DNA of 64,000 nucleotides, taken from NCBI RefSeq assembly GCF_900302475.1, contig NZ_OMOQ01000001.1, positions 1,426,001 through 1,490,000 on the forward strand, written 5' to 3'. Both the position numbers and the translations under genes were made by a program. Shown piece by piece: positions 9,074-27,637 of this stretch. This DNA comes from Defluviimonas aquaemixtae. Lineage in GTDB: Bacteria > Pseudomonadota > Alphaproteobacteria > Rhodobacterales > Rhodobacteraceae. Each line of letters begins with the position of its first letter. Within the stretch, counting starts at the first letter, position 1. The notes under the pieces were generated by a model, which saw only the letters and a program-made list of their open reading frames with translations, had not been told where the DNA came from and searched no databases.

Positions 9074-9204
9074 GCGCAATGCACGAAAACGACGAAACAC
9101 AGAACACGAGGCTGGATTTCCGTGCATAACCTCCGGGCGATATCTTGTGGTCCGCCGCCAGAAGGCTAGATTATTTGGTAGAAGCGGCGCATGGAAGCGG
9201 GCAG

Positions 9205-10416
9205 ATGATACATTTCGAGTTGAATGGAAAACGGATTCGTCCCGGCAATATCGGCGATGCGATCATGCAGGCCGTACTGGAAAGCCTTGAAGCACAAATC
9301 AGGGAGAAGGTCGGCGCGGTACGCGACCCGCAGACCGGCGAGTTCCCGACGGTGGTTGTGCGCGGCGATGACCTGGATAACCTGCAATTCCATGTCGAGG
9401 GCTCACCGGAAGTGATTGCACTCGTCCGCGAACGCCTTGGCCTTGAGAGCGAAGATGAGGAGATGCAGGACCGGCAAACCGATGGACCGCCGCGCGCCTT
9501 TCTGTCCTATGCCTCGGACGATTCCGAGCTGGCCGAGCGAATTGCGCACAAGCTTCAGTCAAGCGGGATTGAGACCTGGTGGGACCGCTGGTGCATCCGT
9601 ACCGGCGACAGCCTTCGCCAGAAGATCGATGAAGGTCTCGGCGAATGCACACATTTCCTTGTTCTGCTGACCCCGCAATCAGTTGGAAAGCCGTGGGTCA
9701 ATCAGGAGATGGATGCCGGTCTTGTTCGCAGGCTCAGGAATGAATGCAGCTTCATGCCGGTGCGCTACAAGCTGGCGGCATTGGATCTGCCGCCGCTGCT
9801 TTCCGGCATGCACGCGCCGGAGATCAAGGCTGATGAGGACATCACGCAGCTTATCAATGATATCCACGGGATCAGCCGCAAGCCCCGGCTCGGCCCATCA
9901 CCGCACGCTCAGGCGGCGGATGCAGCGACACAGACCGGCTACTCGGCGGCGGCCAACACTGTTGCGCGTTACTTTGTTGAAAACACCAAGTATGGCCGTT
10001 TCGCCGATCCGATGATCGACGTTGAACCGCTGGCTGAAGCGAGCGGCCTGACGATCGATGATACCAGGGACGCGCTCTATGAGCTTTCCGGCTTCTTCAA
10101 GGACACCAAGATTCATGCCCTGGTGAAGGCATCGCTGTTCACGGAATTCGACCGCCACTGGAAACCTTGGGACCCGCGCGAGGATGCCCTGAAACTCGCG
10201 GCAGACGTCATGAATGACGATGATTTCCCTGCCGAAAGTAAGGCGATCGCGGAGCTGTACGGCTGGGAACCGCGCAGGCTCAATCCTGCGGCCACGTACC
10301 TGTTCGAGCGGGATATGCTCGTTGACTACAAAGTGATCGGCAATCGTGAATTCGAGCTGCACCGCATCGTCGGCAAACCGGATGAACTAAGACGTTTTCT
10401 CAAAAGCAGGCGCTAA
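9205..10416 (+). CDS. TIR-domain protein with extra N- and C-terminal domains, 403 aa
   Basis: ATG 9205 follows GGAAGCGGGCAG. Residues 1-85 form an alpha/beta domain (MIHFELNGKRIRPGNIGDAI). Residues 97-235 are a TIR domain: RAFLSYASDD, WWDRWCIRTGDS, HFLVLLTPQSVGKPWVNQEM, where E168 sits at the NADase catalytic glutamate position. Residues 265-403 are unassigned and may be a sensor (VARYFVENTKYGRFADPM, RDALYELSGFF). Bacterial TIR proteins commonly deplete NAD+ on phage infection. It is convergent with the AbiE pair, 4 bp apart. Confidence 0.88.
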   Translation: MIHFELNGKRIRPGNIGDAIMQAVLESLEAQIREKVGAVRDPQTGEFPTVVVRGDDLDNLQFHVEGSPEVIALVRERLGLESEDEEMQDRQTDGPPRAFLSYASDDSELAERIAHKLQSSGIETWWDRWCIRTGDSLRQKIDEGLGECTHFLVLLTPQSVGKPWVNQEMDAGLVRRLRNECSFMPVRYKLAALDLPPLLSGMHAPEIKADEDITQLINDIHGISRKPRLGPSPHAQAADAATQTGYSAAANTVARYFVENTKYGRFADPMIDVEPLAEASGLTIDDTRDALYELSGFFKDTKIHALVKASLFTEFDRHWKPWDPREDALKLAADVMNDDDFPAESKAIAELYGWEPRRLNPAATYLFERDMLVDYKVIGNREFELHRIVGKPDELRRFLKSRR

Positions 10417-10420
10417 GGCT

Positions 10421-11878
10421 TTAATATTTCGTATCAACCAGAAATCCCATGCGACCGCCGCACGGGAACCCGCCGGGGGCCTTGTGCTTGTTCAGCCGCC
10501 CGTCCATCGTCTTGCGATTAAACTTCTTCCCGCACATGCCGCACTGATAGACATAGGTCGGACCCGAGCTGAAACTGCTGGTCGTTCGCACGGCGCGGCG
10601 CGGCGCGCGTGCCGGACGCACCGGTGTCGCGCCCCAGCCCCCACCCGCGCTATCGCCGGACCGCCGCTCGATCTGCGGAATAGAAACCGGCCCGCTCGGC
10701 GTCAGCTCCACGTCATAACGCGGCGCAAAAGTCTGGTTTGTTGTGCGCGCGCCCTGAATCCGGTCCACGCGGTAGCTGCGATGGCCGTCGCTGTCGATAT
10801 TCCAGGCATGCAGGATAATGTTGTTTTCGCTCGTGCGCCGCAGCGAGTATGGTTCGATCAAACGGGATCTGCGCCGTCCGCGCTCATCCATGTAATCAAG
10901 CTCGACGCACAGACGGTTGGCTGCTGCAAAGCGAATGACCTCAAGATGGCTTTGTGCTCGTCCGCCGACCGGAATACGCAGGGTGCGCTCGCGAATGACC
11001 GTCTCGCCCCGTCCAAGCTGGTAGGCAGCAGGTGCCGGTGCCGCAGCGCCGCCAAGCAGCCAATCGAAGAAGGCCGGAAGCGCGTCCCAGAACGACTCGA
11101 CCGGCGGCAGCGACGGCAACTGATGTTCGAGCATCTGGCCCCATGCGCCTACGAGATCGCCGCGGTGCGCTGCAAGATCACCAAGCTTCGGGACCTGTAT
11201 CCCTTTAAACTCGCATTTCTGGCGCAGCACATCGAGCAACACAGCAGCGGCGGGCCGCGCCTCAGTGTTGCGAAAGAGGTTAATGACATCATAGAGATCG
11301 CGCGGTCTGGTACGCTCGGCAAGCGCCCTCACCTTCTCGCCGAACGCTTCTTCATAGGCGTAAGCCAATACAGTGAAGCCGCCATCCGGCGCATCACTGT
11401 ATGGATGGAAGATCGGCATCTGCACAGGCGGAAGCACCAGCCGCTCATCTGCAGTCAGATCGAGTTTGATGCGCGGCGGTGAGCGCGGCGATACCGGCCC
11501 GCGATAGGCCAGCTTGCCCTGGCAGCTGATAGACCCGCGCGGGTTGGTGAAGATATCAAATCGCTGCAGGTCGGCTGGGAATTCAAGACCGCATTGTTCG
11601 TAAATCCATTCTGCGATTTCGCCGAACACGCGCCGAAGAAAGGCCTCATCGAGCTGGGATTCGTCTTTCAGCGTGAAGTCGAGATCTTCGGAGAACCGGT
11701 AAGTCTCGAAATAGCATTTCTTAAGACATGTCCCGCCCTTGAAGACCCAGCTCGGCGCAAGCTCGGGGTGCGCATATATTCCCGCAAGCGCCCAGCCAAG
11801 CGCATAGTCCTTTTCGACGACATGCGGTGTGAGGCTCAGCGTTGCCGCGAGATCAAGGATTTCGCGGCGATCAATCAT
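10421..11878 (-). CDS. abiEii: AbiEii-type nucleotidyltransferase toxin fused to WYL and zinc-finger regions
   Basis: 485 aa. Residues 1-215 match the AbiEii/DUF1814 nucleotidyltransferase toxin: VVEKDYALGWAL, VFKGGTCLKKC and the SEDLDF metal-binding Asp pair. Residues 315-395 read as a WYL sensor domain (LEVIRFAAANRLCVELDYMD ... RSYRVDRIQGA). The tail has a CxxC...H...C pattern (YQCGMCGKKFN ... NKHKAPGGFPCGG). Classical AbiEii is about 300 aa without these. The start overlaps the antitoxin stop by 8 nt (ATGATTGA), with GCAGGAA before it, so ATG 11878 is preferred to the longer frame. Confidence 0.85.
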   Translation of the reverse strand: MIDRREILDLAATLSLTPHVVEKDYALGWALAGIYAHPELAPSWVFKGGTCLKKCYFETYRFSEDLDFTLKDESQLDEAFLRRVFGEIAEWIYEQCGLEFPADLQRFDIFTNPRGSISCQGKLAYRGPVSPRSPPRIKLDLTADERLVLPPVQMPIFHPYSDAPDGGFTVLAYAYEEAFGEKVRALAERTRPRDLYDVINLFRNTEARPAAAVLLDVLRQKCEFKGIQVPKLGDLAAHRGDLVGAWGQMLEHQLPSLPPVESFWDALPAFFDWLLGGAAAPAPAAYQLGRGETVIRERTLRIPVGGRAQSHLEVIRFAAANRLCVELDYMDERGRRRSRLIEPYSLRRTSENNIILHAWNIDSDGHRSYRVDRIQGARTTNQTFAPRYDVELTPSGPVSIPQIERRSGDSAGGGWGATPVRPARAPRRAVRTTSSFSSGPTYVYQCGMCGKKFNRKTMDGRLNKHKAPGGFPCGGRMGFLVDTKY

Positions 11879-12680
11879 GTTTTTCCTGCGCCCAGCTTTC
11901 CGGCACCCTGAGCCGCCAGCGCGTAACAAGACGCGGACAGGAAAGGGACGGGTCGAGTTTGGCATGACCCTTGGTCAGGTGCCGCGCCGCTTCGCGCGCT
12001 ATATAGCGCCCCTTCTCATGACGCTCGGCCAGAAAACCGAGCCTTTTGAATATCGCGCCGTTGCCGTTCTTCAAGGCGTATTCAATGAGCGCGCGGGGAT
12101 CGGCGTCCTTGCGCTGGAGATAGTTCGCAAAGCATTCCGAGACATGCTGAATGCCGCCGCCGACAGTGGGATCGGCCAGCATATCGATGATCGTGCGGTG
12201 GACATCGGACACGGCAACCCGCGTATGACCGCGCCACACCGTCTTGGTGCCGAAGATCAGCTCTTCCTTGATATGCCGCAGCGTGAAGATCGCACCCTGG
12301 CGTTCAACAGTGCGGCTGGGTATCGCGCGGGCGGTGTAGACCAGCACATCGCGGAATATCTGTTCGGTCAAATCCCAGTGCTCTGCTGCGGTCCGGCCTC
12401 CGATGTAGCAGGGACTGAACAGCGTCGGCACCAGAATCCACGGGTCCTGCACGACCTGGCGCGCTTCGAGAAGATCAAGCTGGACGGGAACATAGGCTCC
12501 GGCTCCGACGCGGCGCAACCAGCCCTGCTCCGTCCAGCGTGAGAGAAGCTTGGCCGCCTGTGTTCGTGTAATATCAAGGGCTTGAACGGCGTCTTCAATG
12601 CGCACGACATCGCCCGCCGCCTGAATAACGGCAGATAGGCGCGCGCGGCCTCGCGGCAGTGATGTTCGCGAATCGTTCAT
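11871..12680 (-). CDS. abiEi: AbiEi-type antitoxin/transcriptional regulator
   Basis: About 269 aa with an N-terminal winged helix (AVIQAAGDVVRIEDAVQAL, then KLLSRWTEQGWLRRVGAGAY) and the AbiEi C-terminal domain (PCYIGGRTAAEHWDLTEQIF, VHRTIIDMLADPTVGGG). AbiEi proteins repress their own operon and block the AbiEii nucleotidyltransferase in type IV toxin-antitoxin pairs. The start is uncertain: ATG 12680 or 12698, neither with a clear ribosome site. TTCGCGAA palindromes lie around the start. Confidence 0.85.
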   Translation of the reverse strand: MNDSRTSLPRGRARLSAVIQAAGDVVRIEDAVQALDITRTQAAKLLSRWTEQGWLRRVGAGAYVPVQLDLLEARQVVQDPWILVPTLFSPCYIGGRTAAEHWDLTEQIFRDVLVYTARAIPSRTVERQGAIFTLRHIKEELIFGTKTVWRGHTRVAVSDVHRTIIDMLADPTVGGGIQHVSECFANYLQRKDADPRALIEYALKNGNGAIFKRLGFLAERHEKGRYIAREAARHLTKGHAKLDPSLSCPRLVTRWRLRVPESWAQEKHD

Positions 12681-12785
12681 ACTATAACATAATAACATAA
12701 ATTCGCGAAAAACAGGAATTTAATGTAGATTTGTATATCCACACTATAGTTGCTCACATACCGGGAATTTCATTAATTTCGCGAA
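12665..12785. promoter_or_regulatory. Three TTCGCGAA palindromes, probable AbiEi operator
   Basis: The 8-bp palindrome TTCGCGAA occurs at 12665-12672 (inside the first codons of abiEi), 12702-12709 and 12778-12785. The last two share AT-rich flanks (AAATTCGCGAAA-like). Repeated palindromes at the promoter fit negative autoregulation known for AbiEi proteins. The rest of 12786-13143 is AT-rich and contains the hip control region, with no gene. Confidence 0.5.
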
Positions 12786-16441: not shown

Positions 16442-16510
16442 GATATTCTCCTTTCGCTGTAAGTCCTTGAGGACGCGAAAGAAGATGGCCGGTGGCACGA
16501 GCCGGACGGT

Positions 16511-16600
16511 CACCGCCACGACAGAATGAGGGGGCGGGTTACGGGCAACACGGGAATGAAATGAACGGAGCGGGCAACCCGTTGACCGGGACGGCGCGAC
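16511..16600 (-). promoter_or_regulatory. Structured leader repeat, copy 2 (upstream of ardC)
   Basis: It carries the same ordered blocks as 6881-6955 (CACCGCCACG, GGGCAACACGGGA, GGAGCGGGCA). The arms CGGGTT (16535-16540) and AACCCG enclose the core. The distance to the ardC start is 70 bp, nearly the same as in copy 1. A stem kept by different base pairs and equal spacing to minus-strand genes argue for a promoter or RNA element. Confidence 0.5.
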
Positions 16601-16728
16601 CGGCCAGACAAAGCGTCCACACCTCAAGGACAAAAGCGAAAAGGAGAACAGCACCGGCAACGAATACCGGCATGGCAATCCATCCGCCCAAGCGGTATCG
16701 AGCGGACAGGCAAGGCAAGGAAGGTGTG

Positions 16729-17469
16729 ATGGCAGGCGAGTATTCACCGGCGGTAAAGCTGCTCAGCGCGCAAATGGAGGCCCGCGAAAAGGTTCGCATT
16801 GCATGGAAAAGGGATGCAGGCGATCTGATCGATGCGCACCAGTTCGCCTTGAGCGCGGTCTACGCCATGATCGACCGGTTTTCCGGGCGGCGCTTTGACA
16901 AGCAGCCTGCGGCCATTGAAGGGCGCATGAGCCTGACGGCACAGTTTATCCAGGGCGTTGATATCTGTGAAACATCGATTTCAGAGGGGCTGTATTCGCA
17001 GGCAGCCGCCCTGCTCAAACAGCAGCTCGAAACGATCGCGGCCATCGATGAATTTGAAAATGACCGCCGCAAGGACGGCAAAACGCCGAACATCGGTAAG
17101 GGCATTACCGCAGGCTTCGGTCCGATCTATGGCGATCTGAACGGGATTGCGCATGTCTCGCGGCACGAGCTCGCGCGCCAGCTCATCACCGTTGAAAACG
17201 GCGATATCTGCGCGCCCAGCCTGATCCCGCAATATAACCGCGATCATGCGCGGTTCCTTTACGGGTATCATGTCTATTTCATCGTCGAGATCGGCAGGCA
17301 GACCGCGCGCATTTTTGAAGAGATATTCGGCAAAGGCTTCTCCAAAGAAGAATCCGAGCTGAATATCCTCGCCATGATGGTCCTGCTCAGGGAAAAGGTG
17401 ATCGAGCTTCCGTCCGAGGTAAAAAAGCGCTTTCCGAACATCGATTTCGACAAACCTATAAGGGCTTGA
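16729..17469 (+). CDS. Hypothetical helical protein, 246 aa
   Basis: Not recognised. Start ATG 16729 has AAGGAAGG before it; the longer frame to 16492 overlaps the ardC leader. It is mostly alpha-helical, with an amphipathic stretch ISEGLYSQAAALLKQQLETI and a polar segment ending NGIAHVSRHELARQ; there is no signal peptide and no clear catalytic motif. The 3' end overlaps the convergent DUF3883 gene by 14 bp. It is divergent from ardC. Its position between antirestriction and restriction-like genes makes a defence or counter-defence role possible, without proof. Confidence 0.6.
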   Translation: MAGEYSPAVKLLSAQMEAREKVRIAWKRDAGDLIDAHQFALSAVYAMIDRFSGRRFDKQPAAIEGRMSLTAQFIQGVDICETSISEGLYSQAAALLKQQLETIAAIDEFENDRRKDGKTPNIGKGITAGFGPIYGDLNGIAHVSRHELARQLITVENGDICAPSLIPQYNRDHARFLYGYHVYFIVEIGRQTARIFEEIFGKGFSKEESELNILAMMVLLREKVIELPSEVKKRFPNIDFDKPIRA

Positions 17470-18277
17470 GCGTTACCGCGACATCCTGCCAGGAGCCCTC
17501 GCCGCGATCCTGCGGAATATGCGGCTCCATCGCAGTAGCGGGAACTTCCTGCAAAGCACGCGCAGGTAACCGCCAGACGTGAAAGACCGTGCGCGAGGCA
17601 GCACTCGCAGCGTTTTTCCACTCGCCGCGCGTGAGGATAATCGTATCCGAAAGCGTGCTCTTGACCTCAATGAGGCGGGTTACGATCTGGCCCGCATCCA
17701 GATCGTAAGAAAGAATGTCATAGCCAAGCCCGTTATCTTCGAGCGCCATCCATTTAGGCTCACGCGCAATGCCAAGACCGGCAAGGCGCGCGCGTTCATG
17801 CTCTAAAGACAAGCGCTCGGCCAGGCGGGCGCGTTCCATCTTTTCCTGATCGGCGGTCCCGCGCATCAGTGCGGCGATCTTGTCCCACCAAATGATCGCA
17901 TCATCGTCAGGCGTGTTACTAAAAAGCCCCGCCTCGCGAAAACACTGGACTTCATTGGCTGTGAGGGCGGCACGCACATACTCCCTGCCCCTCGGCACGG
18001 TTCGCAGCCATGTAGGCTGGGAAAGCCGCACCCATTCATAAACAAAGAGCCGCAGCCCTGACCTGGTCTGATCCCACGGCAGATCGGGATCAAAGGATTC
18101 AAAGAGCGCCGTTGCGCCATGAAAATCAAGGTCCGCCGCGCCGGATCGCAGCTTGCGCAGACTGCCGAGCGCATCAGCAAGAGAAAGCGATGGATGGGCC
18201 GCGCTGTATTCGCGCAGTTCAATAAAGGCGAGGAACGCCGCCATTGAAAAACAGCGCTCCAGACCCGGCGCTGCCAT
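17456..18277 (-). CDS. DUF3883-domain protein, probable PD-(D/E)XK nuclease
   Basis: 273 aa. The C-terminal DUF3883 domain (residues 180-250) includes DNGLGYDILSYDLD followed by TRLIEVKSTLSDTIILT, which supplies the D...ExK pattern of a restriction-type nuclease, then LTRGEWKNAAS and VFHVWRL. The N-terminal 150 residues are helical and unassigned. The start codon overlaps the helicase stop (TGATG), so it is the last gene of a five-gene operon. DUF3883 domains recur in multi-gene defence islands. Confidence 0.82.
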   Translation of the reverse strand: MAAPGLERCFSMAAFLAFIELREYSAAHPSLSLADALGSLRKLRSGAADLDFHGATALFESFDPDLPWDQTRSGLRLFVYEWVRLSQPTWLRTVPRGREYVRAALTANEVQCFREAGLFSNTPDDDAIIWWDKIAALMRGTADQEKMERARLAERLSLEHERARLAGLGIAREPKWMALEDNGLGYDILSYDLDAGQIVTRLIEVKSTLSDTIILTRGEWKNAASAASRTVFHVWRLPARALQEVPATAMEPHIPQDRGEGSWQDVAVTLKPL

Positions 18278-20169
18278 CAGATACCTTCGTCTTCGCTGTA
18301 GCTCGCGCGGCCTTCAAGCTCTTCGATCAAATCGATCAGGTCCGCAGGCTCGATATCGTAGTCGATGGGCTCTTCAGATTCCTCTTCATCGAGCGCGATC
18401 TGGTGCAGGTCGGTATCATCGAGCAGTTGCTGCATGGCCCGTAGCTTTGTTGCAAGGCGGCGGCTGACCGAGTGATCGACGCATCCGAGCCCTTTAGGGG
18501 CCATTGTCTGGAAGATGTGGACATGGGTCTGCGTGCCCTCGGGCAGACCGAGGCGATGAATACGGTCGATCGACTGCAAGTAGTGTGTCGAGTTGTAAGA
18601 GCGGTCGAGATAGATGGCATCGTGACAGACATGGTGCAGGCTGATGCCTTCGCCTGCCGCCGCCGGATTGGCGATAAAACTCATGCAGGTAGGGTCTTCG
18701 TGGAAGCGGCGCAGCCGCCCTTCGCGCGTTGAAGGATCGGTAGGATCACCGGACGGCACCGCGCCATAGACGGTTACCGGGTTAAGATCGGCAAGCATGC
18801 GCTCCAGCTGCTCGATCGTATCGGTGAATATGCTCCAGATAACGGTTTTGCGGCCTTCGGCTGCGAGTGTGCGGGCAAGATCGCGGACCTCGATCATCTT
18901 GGGCGACGGGCCGTCATCGAGCACCTGCTGCGCGATCCCGGAATCAACATGCGGCGCATCGCGTGTCATCGCATTAAGCGCGAGTACCGGATTGGCGGAA
19001 AGCTGCAGCAGGCGCATCACAGAGCGCCGCGCTCTGACAATATCAACGCCGCTGCCCGAGCGCAGGGAGCTCAGATCGCGCAAGGCTTCGCTGCGCACGA
19101 TCGCGTAAAGAGCGCTTTGCCCCCTGCCCATACCGACCGGTCTGAAGTGCCGCGTGACCGGGGGCAGGCCAAGATCCTGCTTTGTCGTCCTGACGTACAG
19201 ATTGCCGATGACATCGCGCGGCGTGCGCCCGGCGGCGATCTGCAGGCCAAGCCCTGTGCCGGGCCACAAAAAATCGAGCTGCGAGCGCAGATCATTGGGC
19301 GATTGCGGCATCGGCGTTCCGCTCAGAATATCGCGGCGGACCGGAAGCGAGGCGGCATTCAGCAGGACGACCCCGCGCTTGACCGCAAGCCCGCCTTTCA
19401 TGCGGTGCGACTCATCAAGCACGAGATGCACCGGATGTTGGGAAAGATATGTGGCGAACAGATCCGGGATCGACAGAAGCTGCTCATAGTTGATGACAAA
19501 CCGGTTGGCACCGGAGAGCAGGCCGCGCCGAACCGCGTCCGCGCCGCCCGTCAAGATGGTGAAAGGCTCCTTCACCCACTCCGACGCATCATCAGCGATA
19601 CACTCGGCAACGACCTCGCTCCAGGCGGTAAAGGCACTCTTGGGACCGATGACGATGAGCTTTTGCCCTTCCTGCTTTGTCAGCAGGTGAAGCGCGAAGG
19701 TCACCGTCGTCTTGCCCGCGCCGGGAACCGAGAAGTTGGCACCGTTCTGCAGGGAAAGAAGCCGCTTGAGATCGCGAATCTGAAAATCACGAAGCGCGCG
19801 CCTGGTAAAACCGATCGCCTTGAGCCGCCCCGTGATTTCACTTTCCTCAAGCGATGGCGGCGGCGCGGCCTGCGCAGCTTTGACAGTCTTGAACTGCGCA
19901 ACGAATTTGTCGATTTCTGTCTTGGCAGCCGGGCTGGGTTTGAAGCGGAATCCGCGCTTTTTTTGAAGCGGTGCAAACTCGCGGATTAGTGAGAGCACAC
20001 CGGGCCAGGGCAAGGTAATGCCCGTTTCCGAAAAGCTGTAATCATCCTTGGCGGCGGCAGATTGCCGGATACGATCCCAGAGCGCGCTTCCCTGATCGCC
20101 CTCGATGGTCAGTGTCCCGGCAAGCCTCCCCGCATCATAGTCAACCCGGATCGGTGTCGGCTCACTCAT
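18277..20169 (-). CDS. SNF2-family superfamily 2 DNA helicase/translocase
   Basis: 630 aa. Motifs in order: FQIRDLKRLLSLQNGANFSV leading to Walker A SVPGAGKTTVTFAL, DEAH-like LVLDESHRMKG, LSGTPMPQSPNDL, then the C-terminal lobe with KTVIWSIFTDTIEQLERML, NPAAAGEGISLH and motif VI QSIDRIHRLGLPEGTQ. It ends in an acidic tail. SNF2 translocases in defence operons typically move on DNA to drive modification or cleavage by partners. Start ATG 20169 overlaps the ParB-like stop by 8 nt (ATGAGTGA). Confidence 0.92.
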   Translation of the reverse strand: MSEPTPIRVDYDAGRLAGTLTIEGDQGSALWDRIRQSAAAKDDYSFSETGITLPWPGVLSLIREFAPLQKKRGFRFKPSPAAKTEIDKFVAQFKTVKAAQAAPPPSLEESEITGRLKAIGFTRRALRDFQIRDLKRLLSLQNGANFSVPGAGKTTVTFALHLLTKQEGQKLIVIGPKSAFTAWSEVVAECIADDASEWVKEPFTILTGGADAVRRGLLSGANRFVINYEQLLSIPDLFATYLSQHPVHLVLDESHRMKGGLAVKRGVVLLNAASLPVRRDILSGTPMPQSPNDLRSQLDFLWPGTGLGLQIAAGRTPRDVIGNLYVRTTKQDLGLPPVTRHFRPVGMGRGQSALYAIVRSEALRDLSSLRSGSGVDIVRARRSVMRLLQLSANPVLALNAMTRDAPHVDSGIAQQVLDDGPSPKMIEVRDLARTLAAEGRKTVIWSIFTDTIEQLERMLADLNPVTVYGAVPSGDPTDPSTREGRLRRFHEDPTCMSFIANPAAAGEGISLHHVCHDAIYLDRSYNSTHYLQSIDRIHRLGLPEGTQTHVHIFQTMAPKGLGCVDHSVSRRLATKLRAMQQLLDDTDLHQIALDEEESEEPIDYDIEPADLIDLIEELEGRASYSEDEGI

Positions 20170-21544
20170 CGCTGCTGCCGTCGCCGCCTGCGGCGCTGCC
20201 CGCCTTAAAGGGCGCAAGCGCTGCTTCAAGCGCCGCCACCCTGTCCTTGACGGCAGAAAGCTGCGCCTCAATAGCGCCGTATGTGCCTGTATCGGCCTTG
20301 GAAAGATCGACGCTCATCAGCTTGCTGTTGGCGGCCTGGATTGCCTTAAGGGCCTGCTGGCCGATCGCATCCTCGCGGCCCTGCTCCCAGATCGAATCGC
20401 AGACTTCGATTAGTTCGCTTGCCGTCGCATCACGCTGCGAGAGATCATCAAACGCCTCGATGAAGGCATCGAGCGAAACCTGATCATCGTCGTCATCATC
20501 GCCAAGATCGATATCGAGATCATCATCACCGTCATCGTCATCGCTATCATCGCCGTCATCGTCACCGTCGTGGTCGGCGGGGTCGGACTTCGGGCTCAGA
20601 TCGATCGAAAGACGATCGCTCAGAGCCGTGATGACTTCATCGGTCTTCTTGTCGAAGCTGAAATTATAGTCGTAGATCCGGCGCTTAAGATCCCCTGAAT
20701 TCGACACAAGTGCCCATGCAATCCGCCGCTTGGCTTCCAGCGCATCGCCTTCGATACCATCGAGCGCTTTAGCCAAATCGTTGAAGAACTGCTCTGCGTC
20801 TTCGACAAGCTGGTATTCGCCGGGCTCGCGCAGCCAGTCCTTGAGATAGATATCAACCTCGGTGAGCGCGCGGGCCATGCGCTCCACGTCCTTTTTCTTC
20901 TTTTTCATCAGATCGGCGACATAATCGGCCTTCTTGCCGCCACCGATCATTTCCTGGATGGCGATGGATTCATCAATCCAGCCATAGGGCAATTTCGTCT
21001 CGGGCCGCATTTGAAGCCGTACTTCGATCTCGCGGATTTCTTCCGGCGTCACGCTGGCAGGAAGCACGGCGCAGTCCACGTGCGAGAAGTGCTTGAATTC
21101 ACCGGGGCGCTCGGCAAAGAGCTCGCGCATGGCAGCAAGACGGCGGTTGCCGTTTACAACGACGCCGCGGTCAGTGATCAAAAGCGGCTCGCGCTGCTCT
21201 TCGGTTTCCAGCTCTGTCATGATCGGAGAGACCGATGTCGAGCGCCCCTGCCTGGCAAAGTAGGTCAGAATGTCGTGCTGCGCCTGCTGCGCCGACTCGT
21301 TCTCCTGCCCTGCGCTAAAGAAATCATCGGCGACCTTGCGGTCATGGATGTATTTGAGCTGCGACGTGCGCGTGCGGTAGTTCGCCATACGGTAAATCGG
21401 CACCGTGATATCGAGCCGGACCACCGGCAGCTCTGTACGCTTGTTCTGGTATTCGTAGAAGGTGTGTTTTTCTTTGGAGGCTTTTGCGGCATCACCAATC
21501 AGGGTCTGGCGCTCGTGCGGCACTTTCGTATTGGTCTTGTACAT
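20162..21544 (-). CDS. ParB/Srx-fold protein with a long poly-acidic insert
   Basis: 460 aa. The N-terminal ParB/Srx-like nucleotide-binding domain includes PIYRMANYRTRTSQ and LLITDRGVVVNGNRRLAAMR (the family GNRR box). A helical central domain follows, then an Asp-rich linker around residues 325-365 and a C-terminal coiled-coil-like part (AQLSAVKDRVAALEAAL). It is not a chromosome-partition ParB: there is no parA or parS context, and it is coupled to the helicase. Proteins of this fold in defence operons may hydrolyse nucleotides or act as switch factors. Confidence 0.85.
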   Translation of the reverse strand: MYKTNTKVPHERQTLIGDAAKASKEKHTFYEYQNKRTELPVVRLDITVPIYRMANYRTRTSQLKYIHDRKVADDFFSAGQENESAQQAQHDILTYFARQGRSTSVSPIMTELETEEQREPLLITDRGVVVNGNRRLAAMRELFAERPGEFKHFSHVDCAVLPASVTPEEIREIEVRLQMRPETKLPYGWIDESIAIQEMIGGGKKADYVADLMKKKKKDVERMARALTEVDIYLKDWLREPGEYQLVEDAEQFFNDLAKALDGIEGDALEAKRRIAWALVSNSGDLKRRIYDYNFSFDKKTDEVITALSDRLSIDLSPKSDPADHDGDDDGDDSDDDDGDDDLDIDLGDDDDDDQVSLDAFIEAFDDLSQRDATASELIEVCDSIWEQGREDAIGQQALKAIQAANSKLMSVDLSKADTGTYGAIEAQLSAVKDRVAALEAALAPFKAGSAAGGDGSSDE

Positions 21545-21584
21545 GGGTCTCTCGCGCTGCGGGCGTTTGATTTAATGCGGGCGG

Positions 21585-22046
21585 TTATTCAAAAGCGATC
21601 AGCATTATGGGAAGGGTGATGATACGATCGAAGATGTTAAGCTCATTCCAGATGCGCTCGTCATTGGCGATATTGCTGCCGATTTTCACTGCAGCCGCCT
21701 TGGTCGGAACGGCAAGGATCGCGCTTTCGATTTCGCGCTTTATATAAAGATGCTGAAGCTTTATCAGATCGTAGGCATAGCGGCTGATATTGCCGGTCTG
21801 CAACTGAAAGGCGAGATCGCCCTTGCGGGCAAAGACAGTGAGATCGACCTCGGCGTCAATGCGTACGTTGAAGGCCCAGCCGTCGGTCTCAAGCTCGCCC
21901 TTCACATGGTCGCGGATCACAGTTGTCGAAACCTCGCCAACCTTGATCTTCGGTGCTTCAAAGATGTCCGTTGCCCATTCGTAGAGATCGCGCTCTTGCC
22001 AGAGATCGACCCCGTTATGGTGCGAGTAAGTCGCATCGAGCTTCAT
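21585..22046 (-). CDS. Small BglII/BstYI-like restriction endonuclease homologue
   Basis: 153 aa. The start (MKLDATYSHHNG) and the middle (LAFQLQTGNISRYAYDLIKL) recall the BglII-type endonuclease family. It is shorter than BglII (about 220 aa) and, where family members have an ExQ catalytic pair, FQLQ is seen, so the glutamate may be replaced. The ATG overlaps the methyltransferase stop (ATGA), as in a restriction-modification pair. It could be an active nuclease with a diverged site, or a DNA-recognition subunit for the rest of the operon. Confidence 0.6.
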   Translation of the reverse strand: MKLDATYSHHNGVDLWQERDLYEWATDIFEAPKIKVGEVSTTVIRDHVKGELETDGWAFNVRIDAEVDLTVFARKGDLAFQLQTGNISRYAYDLIKLQHLYIKREIESAILAVPTKAAAVKIGSNIANDERIWNELNIFDRIITLPIMLIAFE

Positions 22047-22918
22047 GTAGCACAGCCCTTTGTTGGAGGCTCATAGACAGGCTTGTTCATCGGACGAGTG
22101 CGCAGCGTACCGGCACGCAGCTCGTGGATCCGCTCCCACGCCGTATCGATGTATTTTTTCTCAAGATCGCAGCCGTAGGCCGAGCGATCATGCTTCAGAG
22201 CGGCAATCGCCGAAGACCCAACGCCGACATACGGATCAAGGACACTATCGCCCTCATTTGTGAGACCGAGAACAAGACGTTCGACAAGGCCGACCGGAAA
22301 CTGACAGGGATGGTCGGCCTTTTCGACATGGTTATTCTTGACGTTGGGGATTTCCCAGACATCCGAGGGGTTCTTGCCGAGCGGATTGCTGGAGAGCTGT
22401 CCCTTGTTCGGCCCCTTGAAGTGTTTCTTGTTCGGATATTTGGACGGCACCCGGATTGGATCGAGGTTGAAGACATAATCGTCGGTCTTGGTGAACCACA
22501 GGATCGTCTCATGGCGGCCAGACAGACGCTTGGAGCAGTGCAGGCCGTGCCCGAAGGTCCAGACAATCCGGTTGCGCAGCCGCAGGCCGTGGTTCTTGAA
22601 CAGATCATACAGGATGATGTCGAGCGGGAAGACCTCGCCGTTATCAACGTGGTTGCCGACCTGCCAGCAGATCGAACCTGACGGGTGCAGGACGCGCACG
22701 GCCTGGGCGATGCACGCGGCCTGCTCTTCGATATAGCAGTCCAGCGAGGTGCGGCGCTCATATTCCTTGCCGATATTGTAGGGCGGTGAGGTGACGATGA
22801 GCTGCATGGACTCATCATCAAGACGGCGCATGTATTTGAGATTGTTCTCACAAACAACATTGGCCTGGGCATCAACAGGGAGCCGGGAGATACGTTCAAG
22901 TGCTGCAGTCCGGGTCAT
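22043..22918 (-). CDS. Site-specific DNA methyltransferase (amino-MTase, beta class)
   Basis: 291 aa. Catalytic motif IV TSPPYNIGKEY lies near residue 45 and the AdoMet motif I DPYVGVGSSAIAAL near 240; this order is that of beta-class N4-cytosine/N6-adenine methyltransferases. A TSPPY rather than DPPY box is common among N4-cytosine enzymes. It is the first gene of the operon running to 17456. If paired with a BglII-like nuclease it should protect that enzyme's site; specificity cannot be read here. Confidence 0.92.
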   Translation of the reverse strand: MTRTAALERISRLPVDAQANVVCENNLKYMRRLDDESMQLIVTSPPYNIGKEYERRTSLDCYIEEQAACIAQAVRVLHPSGSICWQVGNHVDNGEVFPLDIILYDLFKNHGLRLRNRIVWTFGHGLHCSKRLSGRHETILWFTKTDDYVFNLDPIRVPSKYPNKKHFKGPNKGQLSSNPLGKNPSDVWEIPNVKNNHVEKADHPCQFPVGLVERLVLGLTNEGDSVLDPYVGVGSSAIAALKHDRSAYGCDLEKKYIDTAWERIHELRAGTLRTRPMNKPVYEPPTKGCAT

Positions 22919-23275: not shown

Positions 23276-23323
23276 TGGTCGGAGTGGAGGGATTCGAACC
23301 CCCGGCCCTCTGCTCCCAAAGCA
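23276..23323 (-). repeat. 3' fragment of tRNA-Pro(TGG), att core
   Basis: Read on the minus strand, this is the anticodon loop TTTGGGA, the rest of the anticodon arm, the variable region, a complete T arm (GGGGGTTCGAATCCCTC) and the acceptor 3' strand with CCA. The 5' half of the tRNA is absent. Such a 3' half is the usual attachment core of tRNA-targeting integrases, and int2 ends 27 bp away. No intact tRNA-Pro lies in the window. Confidence 0.85.
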
Positions 23324-23349: not shown

Positions 23350-24558
23350 TTAGGTGTTTTTTGCCACAGATTTGCCACAACTTTCGTCGCTCAGATATCG
23401 AAGTATACCACCCTCCTCGTCAATTTCATCAATTTCCTTCCTTCTGATAATGTGGCCGTATACATCGAATGTCATCTTAATATTTTCGTGTCCCATTACA
23501 GACTGAATAAACTTTAAACTTTTCTTTTGCTCTATCAACATTGAAGCAAAGAAGTGCCGTAGCGAGTATGGTCTGTAACGTCGTATCAATTTGACCGATT
23601 TGCCATCGCGTCTCTCACTGACCATGCCTGCTTCATCCATCAGCTTGTGAAATCCGCGTCGTACATAGACGTTGTATCTTTGAAAATCACCTTCTCGCCG
23701 AGTAGGAAAGGCAAAGCCTCCACAATTGTCATGTTTAGAGGCATAGTGGCGGACCATATCGAGCGTGGCATCACCAACGGGAATATAGCGTCGCCCGGCT
23801 TTAGTCTTCGGCGGTCCTATTCGATTGCTGCGGTCGAGTGCCTGAACGACCCGGACGCCACGCTCGTCAATCGCCGCAACTGGGAGAACGAGGTACTCCT
23901 GGGGGCGCATTCCGCTGTCCGCCGCGAGATAGATCATAGGCCTGTACCGCTCCCATGCGGCTGCAATTTCGTTGTTTTTCGAATTCGCCAGACGATCCGC
24001 CGCCCGTAGTATCTCTTGCATGTCTTCAAGTGTAGGGATACTCACCGGCTCCTTGTGACGCGCACTTGTTCTGAGCGTCACATTCTCTGCCGGGTCTGCT
24101 GAGATATAGCCGCGACGCTTCATCTCGATGAGAACGGAATGAAAAGAAGACATGACCTTCTGCCCCTGATCAGGTGTACAGTTGCGTTTGAGCCAGGACC
24201 GAAAGGCAATGACGTCTGGCTCTTCAACTTCGCATAACTGCTTGTCCCAGTTGAATTTCTTCATTGTTCTCGCGCGCCAACGGTAATTCTCAAGGGTGGC
24301 TGGGGAAACAGGTTCACGCTCGTCGCGTCCCTCTTTCTCACAGACGTCCAGCCAAAAATCGATCGCATCACCAACAGACGTGACGCCGCTTTCCCGATTC
24401 TGGCACGACAGTTTAGTGTTCCCACCTTCCAAGAAAGCGCGCGCCTCCTTCTGGGTGCTGAATGTTTTGTAGGCATAACCCGATTTTGTGGCGCTGCTCG
24501 GATAACGGACCTGGTAGGTCGTTCCCTTCGCGCCTGTTCTTTTTCTTATGTCAGACAT
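23350..24558 (-). CDS. int: Tyrosine recombinase (integrase 2), tRNA-Pro associated
   Basis: 402 aa. Core-binding domain at about 70-165, catalytic domain from about 185: first Arg in LAADSGMRPQEYLVLP, the lysine region PPKTKAGRRYIPV, box II YSLRHFFASMLIEQ, then MGHENIKMTFDVYGH with the nucleophilic Tyr. I chose ATG 24558; a TTG at 24579 is also in frame. The 3' end runs into 11-bp-spaced TTGCCACA repeats and lies next to the tRNA-Pro fragment, which should be its core. Confidence 0.95.
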   Translation of the reverse strand: MSDIRKRTGAKGTTYQVRYPSSATKSGYAYKTFSTQKEARAFLEGGNTKLSCQNRESGVTSVGDAIDFWLDVCEKEGRDEREPVSPATLENYRWRARTMKKFNWDKQLCEVEEPDVIAFRSWLKRNCTPDQGQKVMSSFHSVLIEMKRRGYISADPAENVTLRTSARHKEPVSIPTLEDMQEILRAADRLANSKNNEIAAAWERYRPMIYLAADSGMRPQEYLVLPVAAIDERGVRVVQALDRSNRIGPPKTKAGRRYIPVGDATLDMVRHYASKHDNCGGFAFPTRREGDFQRYNVYVRRGFHKLMDEAGMVSERRDGKSVKLIRRYRPYSLRHFFASMLIEQKKSLKFIQSVMGHENIKMTFDVYGHIIRRKEIDEIDEEGGILRYLSDESCGKSVAKNT

Positions 24559-24620
24559 TGCAAATCCACCGATCTCCAATCACTCGTTAAACAAATTTTC
24601 TGAAATAGGATAATAAGTTA

Positions 24621-26092: not shown

Positions 26093-27637
26093 ATGGCCGA
26101 ACACGCGTTTATCTCCTATGTACGGGAAGACAGCGCAATCGTTGACCGACTTGCAACCGAACTTCGGTCAAATGGTGTTATCGTCTGGCTTGATAGGGAC
26201 GACATACTTCCCGGGCATTTTTGGAAAGACGCGATTAAGAAGGCGATATCCGAGGGAGGCTATTTTATTGCCTGTTTCTCTCAAGAATTGCAAAGCCGCG
26301 AAGAAACGTACATGCATGGCGAATTGCGCCTTGCAATCGATCGGTTGCGAGGCATGCCTCGCGAAAGAACTTGGTTCATACCTGTATTACTTAACAAAAC
26401 AGAAATCCCCAATCATCCAATTTCCGATTTCGAAAATTTATCTGAAATAAACTTTATTGAATTGTATGACAACTGGGATGAATCAATTGTAAAATTGCTT
26501 ACCTCAATGGGCATAACAGACACCGATGCAAAGTCTGTAAGACAGATTGCCAATCTAATAAAAATCGATCCTAATCAGAAGAAACACGCGATTCGGAGTT
26601 TGATGGAAATCCTGAAAACTAATGGGGACGATACGTCAATAAAATATGCTCTACTTTCGAAGAGCGCAAAAGTACGCGATGCAGCGCTAAGATATTTAAC
26701 GGAGCAGGGGCGCGGGAAGAAAGAGGCGATCGAGCTTTTAAAAACGATTATGTCTGATGTCGCAAGCTGCCAACTAGAAGAATTGAGTGATCAAGAACTT
26801 CGAGAAGAACTTCAAATTATTGAGGAGTTCTGCAATCTAGCAGATGGCTTTGTACCGCGTTTGGCATCGATCGCAGAACAATCTACGTCAGAGAGTATTA
26901 CAGGCGCATTATTGAGCACTATCTCGAATGTTGGAACTATCGAAAGTAACTCTATCACATACCTTTCGAGATTTCTGCAAAACACTTCACCGTATGTAAA
27001 GGACTGTGCGATATTCTCGGTATCTCGGTTTGGAAGACTAGCAGATAAGGTCTGCTCAGAGATATCAGCGGCCACCGGAGACGTTCAAATAAGAGAGAGT
27101 ACTGCATATGCGATCGGTGAGCTATTCTCCGGCAAAGCGTATCAAATATCACGGTTGAAAGAACTACTTCGTGATGAGAACGGGGAAGTTCGCAGGGCGG
27201 CACTGCATGCAGTAGTTCGCATTCATAAACATTACGTGGTTTCTGAGAAATTCTTGAATGAAGTTCGCACGTGCCTAAGAGATGAGAATGTAAAGGTTGT
27301 TTCGGAGGCGCTTGAAGCACTTTATTATGGTCGGTGCGTCTCAGTTGACGAACTAGAGACACTCATAAATCTGCTCTCCAGTGATGATGAAAAAATAAGG
27401 TGCGACGCATGTGATCTTATTTCAATGCTTGGCCCTGAGGCGGCACCAGCAACATCTGCATTACTTTCCAATCTTTCGCATGAAAACCGGAATGTTGTCC
27501 GTGCGGCCATCAATGTATTAGGCTCGATAGGTCCCGATGCGTCGGAAGCGAGTGAACGCCTTATTGAACTGATTATGGACAATGATCGGGAAATCGCTCG
27601 GGCTTCTGTTCTTGCGCTCGGTAGTATTGGCGCGTAG
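26093..27637 (+). CDS. TIR-HEAT repeat fusion protein, candidate single-gene defence
   Basis: 514 aa. Residues 1-140 are a TIR domain: HAFISYVREDSAIVDRLATE, VWLDRDDILPG, YFIACFSQEL, with E77 in TYMHGELRLAI at the catalytic position. From about 150 on are HEAT-like helical repeats (KSAKVRDAALRYL, TSPYVKDCAIFSVSRFG, ENGEVRRAALHAVVRIH, ENRNVVRAAINVLGSIG, DREIARASVLALGSIG). The base composition is clearly AT-richer than all neighbours, a sign of recent transfer. It lies next to integrase 1, the usual place for newly gained cargo. CCGGAGGA precedes the ATG. Confidence 0.9.
   Translation: MAEHAFISYVREDSAIVDRLATELRSNGVIVWLDRDDILPGHFWKDAIKKAISEGGYFIACFSQELQSREETYMHGELRLAIDRLRGMPRERTWFIPVLLNKTEIPNHPISDFENLSEINFIELYDNWDESIVKLLTSMGITDTDAKSVRQIANLIKIDPNQKKHAIRSLMEILKTNGDDTSIKYALLSKSAKVRDAALRYLTEQGRGKKEAIELLKTIMSDVASCQLEELSDQELREELQIIEEFCNLADGFVPRLASIAEQSTSESITGALLSTISNVGTIESNSITYLSRFLQNTSPYVKDCAIFSVSRFGRLADKVCSEISAATGDVQIRESTAYAIGELFSGKAYQISRLKELLRDENGEVRRAALHAVVRIHKHYVVSEKFLNEVRTCLRDENVKVVSEALEALYYGRCVSVDELETLINLLSSDDEKIRCDACDLISMLGPEAAPATSALLSNLSHENRNVVRAAINVLGSIGPDASEASERLIELIMDNDREIARASVLALGSIGA

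Follow-up and report, generated by a model that had tools for sequence, protein, structure and literature searches.

A BstYI-type protein without catalytic acids in a recurrent five-gene operon, probably a bacterial DNA-restriction defence

Type II restriction enzymes are the textbook example of self-contained scissors. Type I, type III and type ISP systems combine methylation-sensitive recognition with an ATP-driven translocase and a nuclease, and this logic would be shared by the operon described here, which lies in a 64,000-nucleotide stretch of the Defluviimonas aquaemixtae genome (contig NZ_OMOQ01000001.1, positions 1,426,001 to 1,490,000; the whole stretch is called the window). It encodes a DNA methyltransferase (MTase), a small protein of the BglII/BstYI fold (BglII-like), a ParB-like protein, an SNF2-family translocase and a predicted nuclease with a DUF3883 domain. 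The reading that we favour, and consider reasonably probable from the sequences, is that this is a restriction-modification (R-M) system in which a type II endonuclease of the BstYI type, once disarmed, was retained to read the sequence for the ParB-like, SNF2 and DUF3883 proteins.

Two reports bear on the type II relatives. In the portions of text available, a type II enzyme with an Endonuc-BglII domain cuts RGATCY and its own MTase marks RGATCY as N6-methyladenine (m6A) (PMC10734518), and a second BglII/BstYI-family system, from Acinetobacter, also marks RGATCY as m6A (PMC10287943). These reports support RGATCY as the site for type II relatives. DUF3883 was called a novel restriction endonuclease domain, and was noted to be fused to SNF2 in some R-M operons, in the relevant section of PMC3710099.

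A preliminary description of the window had placed five same-strand genes between positions 17456 and 22918. A check of the sequence and its open reading frames (ORFs) found all five there on the minus strand, with the junctions as described: the MTase and BglII-like genes overlap by ATGA, a 40-bp gap (21545-21584) precedes the ParB-like gene, and overlaps of ATGAGTGA and TGATG join the ParB-like gene to the SNF2 gene and the SNF2 gene to the DUF3883 gene, respectively (Table 1).

Table 1 Operon features, operon surroundings and slot proteins of plasmid loci (window positions unless a locus is named)
Feature	Position	Strand	Remarks
DNA methyltransferase, N6/N4 type (MTase)	22043-22918	-	291 aa; Pfam PF01555 N6_N4_Mtase 1.9e-49; SPPY motif 22778-22789
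BglII/BstYI-fold protein without catalytic acids (BglII-like, proposed site reader)	21585-22046	-	153 aa; profile match to BstYI
Codon 72 (Phe) of BglII-like	21831-21833	-	faces catalytic Asp of BstYI; residues T30 F27 A2 N2 Y1 S1 P1 in 64
Codon 81 (Gln) of BglII-like	21804-21806	-	faces catalytic Glu of BstYI/BamHI; residues Q35 C21 H4 N2 G1 S1 in 64
QTGN block, codons 83-86 of BglII-like	21789-21800	-	equivalent to ETGN of BamHI, QFGK of BstYI; Q83 64/64, T84 62/64, G85 64/64, N86 62/64
ParB-like protein	20162-21544	-	460 aa; NGNRR motif 21140-21154, ParB-type HTH, acidic insert
SNF2-family translocase	18277-20169	-	630 aa from its ATG; Walker A 19708-19728; Pfam PF00176, PF00271
DUF3883/NOV_C predicted PD-(D/E)XK nuclease	17456-18277	-	273 aa; Pfam PF13020 4e-11
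DUF3883 active-site pattern D..ExK	D187 17717-17719, E204 17666-17668, K206 17660-17662	-	from alignment
Slot protein of plasmid loci	L009:8153-8995, L010:8102-8947, L011:8135-9001, L012:599-1558		
Tyrosine integrase adjoining operon (carrier element, outside system)	23350-24579	-	Pfam PF00589 1.3e-16
tRNA 3'-half fragment beside integrase, possible attachment site (outside system)	23277-23322	-	proline-type by reading of sequence
325-aa ORF	16492-17469	+	weak phrog_32402 match 0.001; convergent, overlaps DUF3883 gene end by 14 bases

The BglII-like protein matched the Pfam Endonuc-BglII family at 9e-6 (25.9 bits, just below the cut-off of 26.0), and 30 of 30 aligned relatives matched it at E values of up to 0.1. 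When a profile of 30 members was compared with the PDB, the best matches were BstYI (1.4e-7), BamHI (2.7e-5) and OkrAI (1e-4), the next being at 0.072. In the aligned block BamHI has VGMEFETGN and BstYI VAIEVQFGK; the BglII-like family has a residue other than Glu and then x-QTGN. We take codon 81 to stand at the position of BstYI E128 and BamHI E111, and codon 72 at that of BstYI D119. The PDB profile alignment puts the E and Q of BstYI, and the E and E of BamHI, at exactly the numbers of the catalytic residues.

Neither acid position of the D..E-x-Q endonuclease pattern carries Asp or Glu in any of the 64 aligned operon homologues (0/64), which are all the distinct BglII-like members among 70 profile matches; W57, Q83, G85, D93 and E135 are invariant in them. 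Intact BstYI-type enzymes have D119 and E128 in 11 of 11 cases and Q130 in 10 of 11. Two operons of uncultured Alphaproteobacteria, L064 (AG-447-C07) and L065 (AG-894-P02), whose names suggest single-cell genomes of marine origin, encode full-length BstYI homologues of 204 and 206 aa with Asn at both acid positions, apparent intermediates in the disarming. The idea of an active BglII-like nuclease was rejected on the 64-sequence residue counts. The Asp or Glu found at residues 76-77 of many members was also rejected as a catalytic acid, as it aligns with BstYI 123-124 (VKDR) and not with D119. That the protein has been disarmed, by loss of its cutting residues, is thus strongly supported at the level of alignment. 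This loss is new relative to the preliminary description, in which the protein was a small restriction-type protein, a label that the absence of the acids throughout the family does not bear out.

Relatives of the operon were sought with the ParB-like protein in 385 alphaproteobacterial genomes, plasmids, phages, viral contigs and a species-level genome collection. Seven of the 385 genomes, including that of the window, have a relative (the SNF2 protein is also present in five of the other six), as do six plasmid records and eight viral contigs; the search of phage records with this protein gave none. The species-level collection had 133 places with relatives, of which the best 80 were kept. 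After annotation of the loci by profiles and removal of the window (L001) and 13 duplicates, 79 distinct loci with ParB-like and SNF2 genes were obtained, 73 of them with adequate flanks (L016, L059, L078, L087, L096 and L106 were excluded for short flanks). The sample leans to five-gene operons because the query alignment of the species-level search itself contained such operons.

All five genes occur in the same order and on the same strand in 46 of the 73 loci, the window not counted. BglII-like and the ParB-like, SNF2 and DUF3883 genes (the core) occur without such an MTase upstream in 11, neither upstream MTase nor BglII-like is present in 10, MTase and core occur without BglII-like in five, and one lacks DUF3883; overall BglII-like is present in 57 and DUF3883 in 72. 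The exact order in 46 distinct loci excludes chance association, contradicts the possibility that homologues of these genes are not co-located elsewhere, and confirms that the five genes are a real, correctly placed unit that recurs together. Intergenic gaps are at most 60 bases in 41 to 44 of 45 five-gene loci. The five-gene order occurs in Proteobacteria and in metagenome-assembled genomes titled Verrucomicrobia, Nitrospinota and Ruminococcus, and Paracoccus denitrificans is a carrier (L008, L038). The operon is thus widespread, and it is probably a bacterial DNA-restriction defence. On the Devosia algicola chromosome (L053:6640-12058) the operon is decayed, with fragmented ParB-like, SNF2 and DUF3883 genes; this locus is within the 46 and was left out of trees and distance matrices. 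In L036 (5171-10468) the place of DUF3883, after the MTase, ParB-like and SNF2 genes, is taken by an ORF without a match, which is at least 495 aa long and reaches the contig end. The core-protein tree also omits L016, L036 and L106.

The SNF2 protein matched SNF2-rel_dom (PF00176, 2.7e-8) and Helicase_C (PF00271, 9.4e-7) in Pfam and phrog_62 (9.3e-53) in PHROGs. Its Walker A GKT and D-E-x-H motifs are kept in 77 of 77 sequences, so that the motifs of an ATP-dependent translocase motor are present. Among DUF3883 sequences the Asp of the D..ExK pattern is found in 79 of 79 and the Glu and Lys each in 78 of 79, the single exception being a gap; the predicted PD-(D/E)XK active-site pattern is accordingly intact. 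As a set, the five genes are in keeping with a role in restriction-modification. Since the BglII-like protein lacks the acids needed by a nuclease of its fold, the DUF3883 protein is the likely cutter of the system. The BglII-like protein itself is more plausibly a site reader, whose only remaining task is most likely to recognise DNA on behalf of a motor and a nuclease encoded by other genes of the operon.

It could be argued that the BglII-like protein still cuts by means of a relocated or unusual active site, or that the ParB-like protein is the main nuclease, given that D93 and E135 are invariant in the BglII-like family and that, in the part of PMC5512222 that is available, some ParB/Srx proteins are reported to act as nucleases or nickases. 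This appears improbable: both known acid positions are lost in all 64 members, as Asn and Asn even in the full-length BstYI homologues, and the DUF3883 gene is present in all but one of the 73 loci, with D..ExK kept in at least 78 of 79 sequences.

The five proteins co-diverge. Their pairwise distance matrices (46 loci, window included) correlate with r 0.81-0.97, and 0 of 999 permutations gave as high a value for each of the ten protein pairs. The MTase is the most conserved of the five, with a mean identity of 64% versus 36-49% for the others. These data bear on the possibility that the BglII-like protein regulates or restrains the operon, similarly to a controller protein: it would bind sites in its own operon and so time the expression of MTase and effector, while the ParB-like protein or the MTase recognises the target. 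Such a role would suit its being dispensable in 16 of the 73 loci and the presence of five RGATCY sites inside the window operon. Its gene, however, lies between the MTase and ParB-like genes, overlapping the former in 33 of 45 five-gene loci, and its divergence follows that of SNF2 (r 0.95) and DUF3883 (r 0.91). Placement and co-divergence make it look more like a subunit than a regulator, and we judge the regulatory explanation unlikely.

A separate scan for the BglII-like family matched 12 viral contigs. Nine have a ParB-like gene, one has no partner at all and two (L143:4114-5315 and L144:1490-2691) carry only an operon-type MTase gene followed by a 104-aa BglII-like gene, without ParB-like or SNF2 genes, a pair that perhaps serves phage self-protection.

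The SPPY motif of the MTase is kept in 60 of 60 relatives, and by Pfam, profile and neighbour evidence the MTase is paired with a BglII/BstYI-fold protein as in a type II R-M system. At the nucleotide level nine plasmid records were matched, and in seven of them the match is to the MTase outside such an operon. Of five plasmids inspected, those of Sphingobium and Komagataeibacter have the MTase beside an enzyme annotated as 'BglII/BstYI family'; no BglII/BstYI enzyme is annotated in the stretch around the MTase on the Neorhizobium, Shinella and Paenibacillus plasmids. The MTase of the Sphingobium BstYI-type R-M pair is 70% identical to the window MTase over 275 aa, and its partner enzyme matches BstYI from end to end (5.7e-90). 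More plasmid pairs of MTase and BstYI-type enzyme were found by protein search, those of Acinetobacter and Spirosoma being inspected. Eight of the 385 alphaproteobacterial genomes have a BstYI-type enzyme, one with an internal stop. The 11 intact enzymes, seven from these genomes and four from plasmids, each adjoin an MTase that the profile of the operon MTases detects. In a FastTree phylogeny of 70 MTases, rooted at the midpoint and read without its support values, the operon clade to which the window belongs has the alphaproteobacterial BstYI-type MTases as neighbours, and L064 and L065 have those of Acinetobacter and Spirosoma; these two placements would be compatible with repeated exchange. 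One viral contig also has at its edge (L150:1-330) a BglII/BstYI-type fragment, without operon partners in the available stretch, in which the Glu is kept (EVEVQFGN).

Parts of the operon are exchanged. Bacilli loci have no upstream MTase and have a longer, more distant N6/N4 MTase nearby, mostly convergent downstream (one was scanned with Pfam). L085, L087 and L099 have a C5-cytosine MTase nearby instead, and no MTase was found at L088 by profile or crude motif scan. BglII-like and core are retained where the MTase is exchanged, for N6/N4 enzymes mainly in Bacilli and for C5 enzymes in the three loci named. On the plasmids L009-L012 an unrelated protein of 280-319 aa occupies the BglII-like slot before the ParB-like gene; with the first of these loci as reference, its copies show 58-64% identity. 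This protein gave no Pfam match (three of four scanned) and no PDB match, and is a possible alternative site reader. In the stretches inspected, a DNA cytosine MTase is present on each of the four plasmids and vsr on three; these MTases could belong to independent R-M systems. Neither slot protein nor cytosine MTase was seen on the Streptomyces plasmid of L013, for which the gene table is incomplete. Because the MTase is exchanged and the slot protein replaces BglII-like, the data suggest that ParB-SNF2-DUF3883 is an effector core that accepts different readers.

The exchangeable MTase, and the occurrence of the core without MTase and BglII-like in L009-L013, would also be expected if two neighbouring systems were present, a decayed type II R-M remnant (MTase and dead enzyme) beside an independent ParB-SNF2-DUF3883 system. 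A dead remnant, however, should neither keep an invariant Q-x-G core nor persist in 57 of 73 loci, and its divergence should not follow that of the effector; this explanation seems very unlikely.

The ParB-like protein gave no significant match in Pfam. Its assignment to ParB comes from a profile of its family: compared by hhalign with 16 chromosomal ParB sequences (those of 30 fetched that passed a motif filter) it gave a probability of 81 (E 1.2e-5) over columns 110-234, helix-turn-helix (HTH) included, and six control profile comparisons gave a probability of at most 1. NGNRR faces GERRW, E..LQ faces the E-N-x-Q of ParB and HTH faces HTH, and the sequence features of a ParB N-terminal fold with HTH are thus present. 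Each position of NGNRR is kept in 91 or 92 of 92 ParB-like sequences, solo homologues included; the GERR phosphate motif of the ParB CTPase family is not, as all 92 have N where that motif has E. The poly-acidic insert noted earlier in this ParB/Srx-fold protein is real and, by comparison of sequences, specific to the window lineage. Its best 40-residue stretch is 60% Asp/Glu; among 45 five-gene relatives the median is 35%, and only two reach 50%. The fold assignment thus gains support and the insert, which is not conserved, should not carry the mechanism. NGNRR ParB-like genes without SNF2 were also seen among metabolic genes (L066:7971-9353, L067:7971-9329, L080:7716-9284, L086:7866-9299). 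Homologues of this kind were excluded from the system counts and probably represent a second, different use of the family.

If the BglII-like protein is a disarmed reader, the operon might work as follows. The MTase would, from its homology, mark an RGATCY-like palindrome in the DNA of the host. The BglII/BstYI-fold protein, in which both metal-binding acids are gone by alignment, would only bind the unmarked site. The ParB-like protein, from its similarity, may act at the occupied site as a nucleotide-gated adapter or clamp that recruits the motor. The SNF2 protein, with its motifs intact, would translocate along unmarked invading DNA, and the DUF3883 protein, with its active-site pattern intact, would cut. 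The whole would resemble the working of type I, type III and ISP systems, with a specificity part built from a dead type II enzyme. We infer the order of action and the reader role from the sequences; the earlier proposal that the ParB-like protein and the translocase couple recognition to the distal nuclease is plausible, and the earlier interpretation as a whole is partly supported. More tentatively, there may be a class of restriction systems derived from disarmed type II enzymes. In these the dead enzyme, as a dimer, would still read a palindrome that is unmethylated and would load a nucleotide-gated DNA clamp of ParB type, from which an SNF2 translocase and a nuclease of its own gene take over. 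The core would then serve as an effector of general use, able to combine with other readers and methylases (a BstYI-like reader with an N6/N4 or C5 MTase; the unrelated 280-320-aa protein on plasmids that also carry cytosine MTases).

The site itself, RGATCY-like for the operon, is suggested by MTase homology. CTCGAG was also considered as the target, since no other six-base palindrome is as depleted in the operons of BglII-bearing loci and the window (31 seen versus 106 expected; flanks 100 versus 233, controls 68 versus 90; ratios 0.29, 0.43 and 0.75). It was dropped: in the window's genome as a whole it is not rare, with 1630 copies versus 961 of the reversed word, and CTCGAG is rarer than the reversed word in just 13 of 37 carrier genomes.

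Several observations weigh against the disarmed-reader interpretation. The loss of the active site is read from sequence alignment. BglII-like is missing from the 16 loci mentioned above, and in the core-protein tree the BglII-less loci L076, L082, L104, L105, L081 and L060-L063, which keep MTase and core, fall inside the BglII-bearing group, so something else can supply recognition there. Shared organism history contributes part of the co-divergence. The replacement of GERR by NGNRR makes nucleotide use by the ParB-like protein uncertain. In the available text of PMC10734518, BstYI itself is insensitive to m6A; as the published MTases mark m6A, the mark that would block a BstYI-like reader is uncertain. 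Finally, a palindrome-avoidance test over operons, flanks and controls gave RGATCY no support, AGATCT being about equally low in all three (0.44, 0.52 and 0.55). The interpretation gives directly testable predictions, namely the site, binding without cleavage and the cutting subunit.

The operon adjoins a tyrosine integrase and a tRNA fragment (Table 1). ARAGORN called no tRNA at the position of the fragment, and a 31-base piece of it has a single copy in the genome at up to two mismatches, so that a partner attachment site was not found. Between 2988 and 16444 there are genes for a type IV coupling protein, a weak VWA match, a HipA-like protein with an HTH partner and ArdC, and from this content the operon looks like cargo of an integrated mobile element. 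The convergent ORF at 16492-17469 had no significant Pfam, PADLOC or NCBIfam match. Further defence candidates in the window are two TIR-domain proteins (26093-27637, plus strand, with C-terminal HEAT repeats, and 9145-10416, plus strand). There is also an AbiE-like pair (10421-12698, minus strand), in which the AbiEii-type protein has an extra WYL domain and the AbiEi match is just below the cut-off. Around the BglII-bearing loci alone, 67 and one further of 222 neighbouring ORFs were scanned. GmrSD, SIR2, AIPR, resolvase, relaxase and candidate defence families were found with 1-4 members each, among the matches listed (best 25 of 62 and best 25 of 59 families).

The preliminary description had matched the set to no named system, and this still holds: none with the same five components was found in the family libraries or in the literature searched, which was limited to open-licence papers. 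At the level of whole systems, none of the matches listed for the five proteins in PADLOC, NCBIfam, Pfam and PHROGs was a fit (for the MTase in PADLOC, the best 25 of 69 families). An SNF2-type helicase is shared with DISARM, Dpd, Zorya, BREX and BREX-related systems, and in the literature excerpts available Dpd and Dnd also have ParB-superfamily proteins. DISARM drmA, drmB and drmC or drmD were not found among the five, the SNF2 protein giving weak partial DrmD/DrmA matches in PADLOC (best 1.4e-5) and 24.1 bits against a cut-off of 610 for DrmD in NCBIfam. Likewise the five proteins gave no listed match to PglZ and BrxC of BREX (SNF2 protein weakly to BrxHII, 8.9e-5), none to ZorA or ZorB of Zorya (SNF2 protein to ZorD, weak and partial, best 6.7e-10), none among those listed in PADLOC to Druantia core genes, and none to DpdA and its partners (SNF2 protein weakly to the DpdE helicase, best 3.2e-6).

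The ParB-CTPase fold proteins outside chromosome segregation surveyed in PMC12704722 share the ParB N-terminal fold and HTH; as far as that text is available, theirs have GERR whereas the operon protein has NGNRR, and its main text uses neither the word SNF2 nor the word DUF3883. The SNF2-DUF3883 fusions of the Ava_2192 type are similar in having an SNF2 motor and a DUF3883 nuclease in an R-M context. They differ, in the entry of PMC3710099 devoted to them, in that the two are fused, beside a HEPN-AAA+ (DUF499) protein, and in that this entry mentions neither a BglII-like nor an NGNRR ParB-like protein.

HsdS/HsdM/HsdR, Mod/Res and single-chain ISP architectures were not found among the matches listed for the five proteins in Pfam, PADLOC and NCBIfam (ResIII was sub-threshold, 14.2 bits against a cut-off of 22.5). 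Unlike type I, type III and ISP systems, the operon would rely on a converted type II enzyme for recognition, with a separate SNF2 motor, a DUF3883 nuclease and an extra ParB-like protein, so that a ParB-type protein gains a possible role in immunity. With BstYI/BglII-type type II R-M systems (RGATCY) the operon shares an MTase of the same family, 70% identical in one pair, and the adjoining BglII/BstYI-fold protein. It differs from them in its three added genes and in the state of this protein, which lacks the catalytic acids and in most cases is reduced to about 153 aa. A type II enzyme seems here to have given up cutting and taken on the targeting in a motor-driven system, and the operon would link simple type II with motor-dependent restriction.

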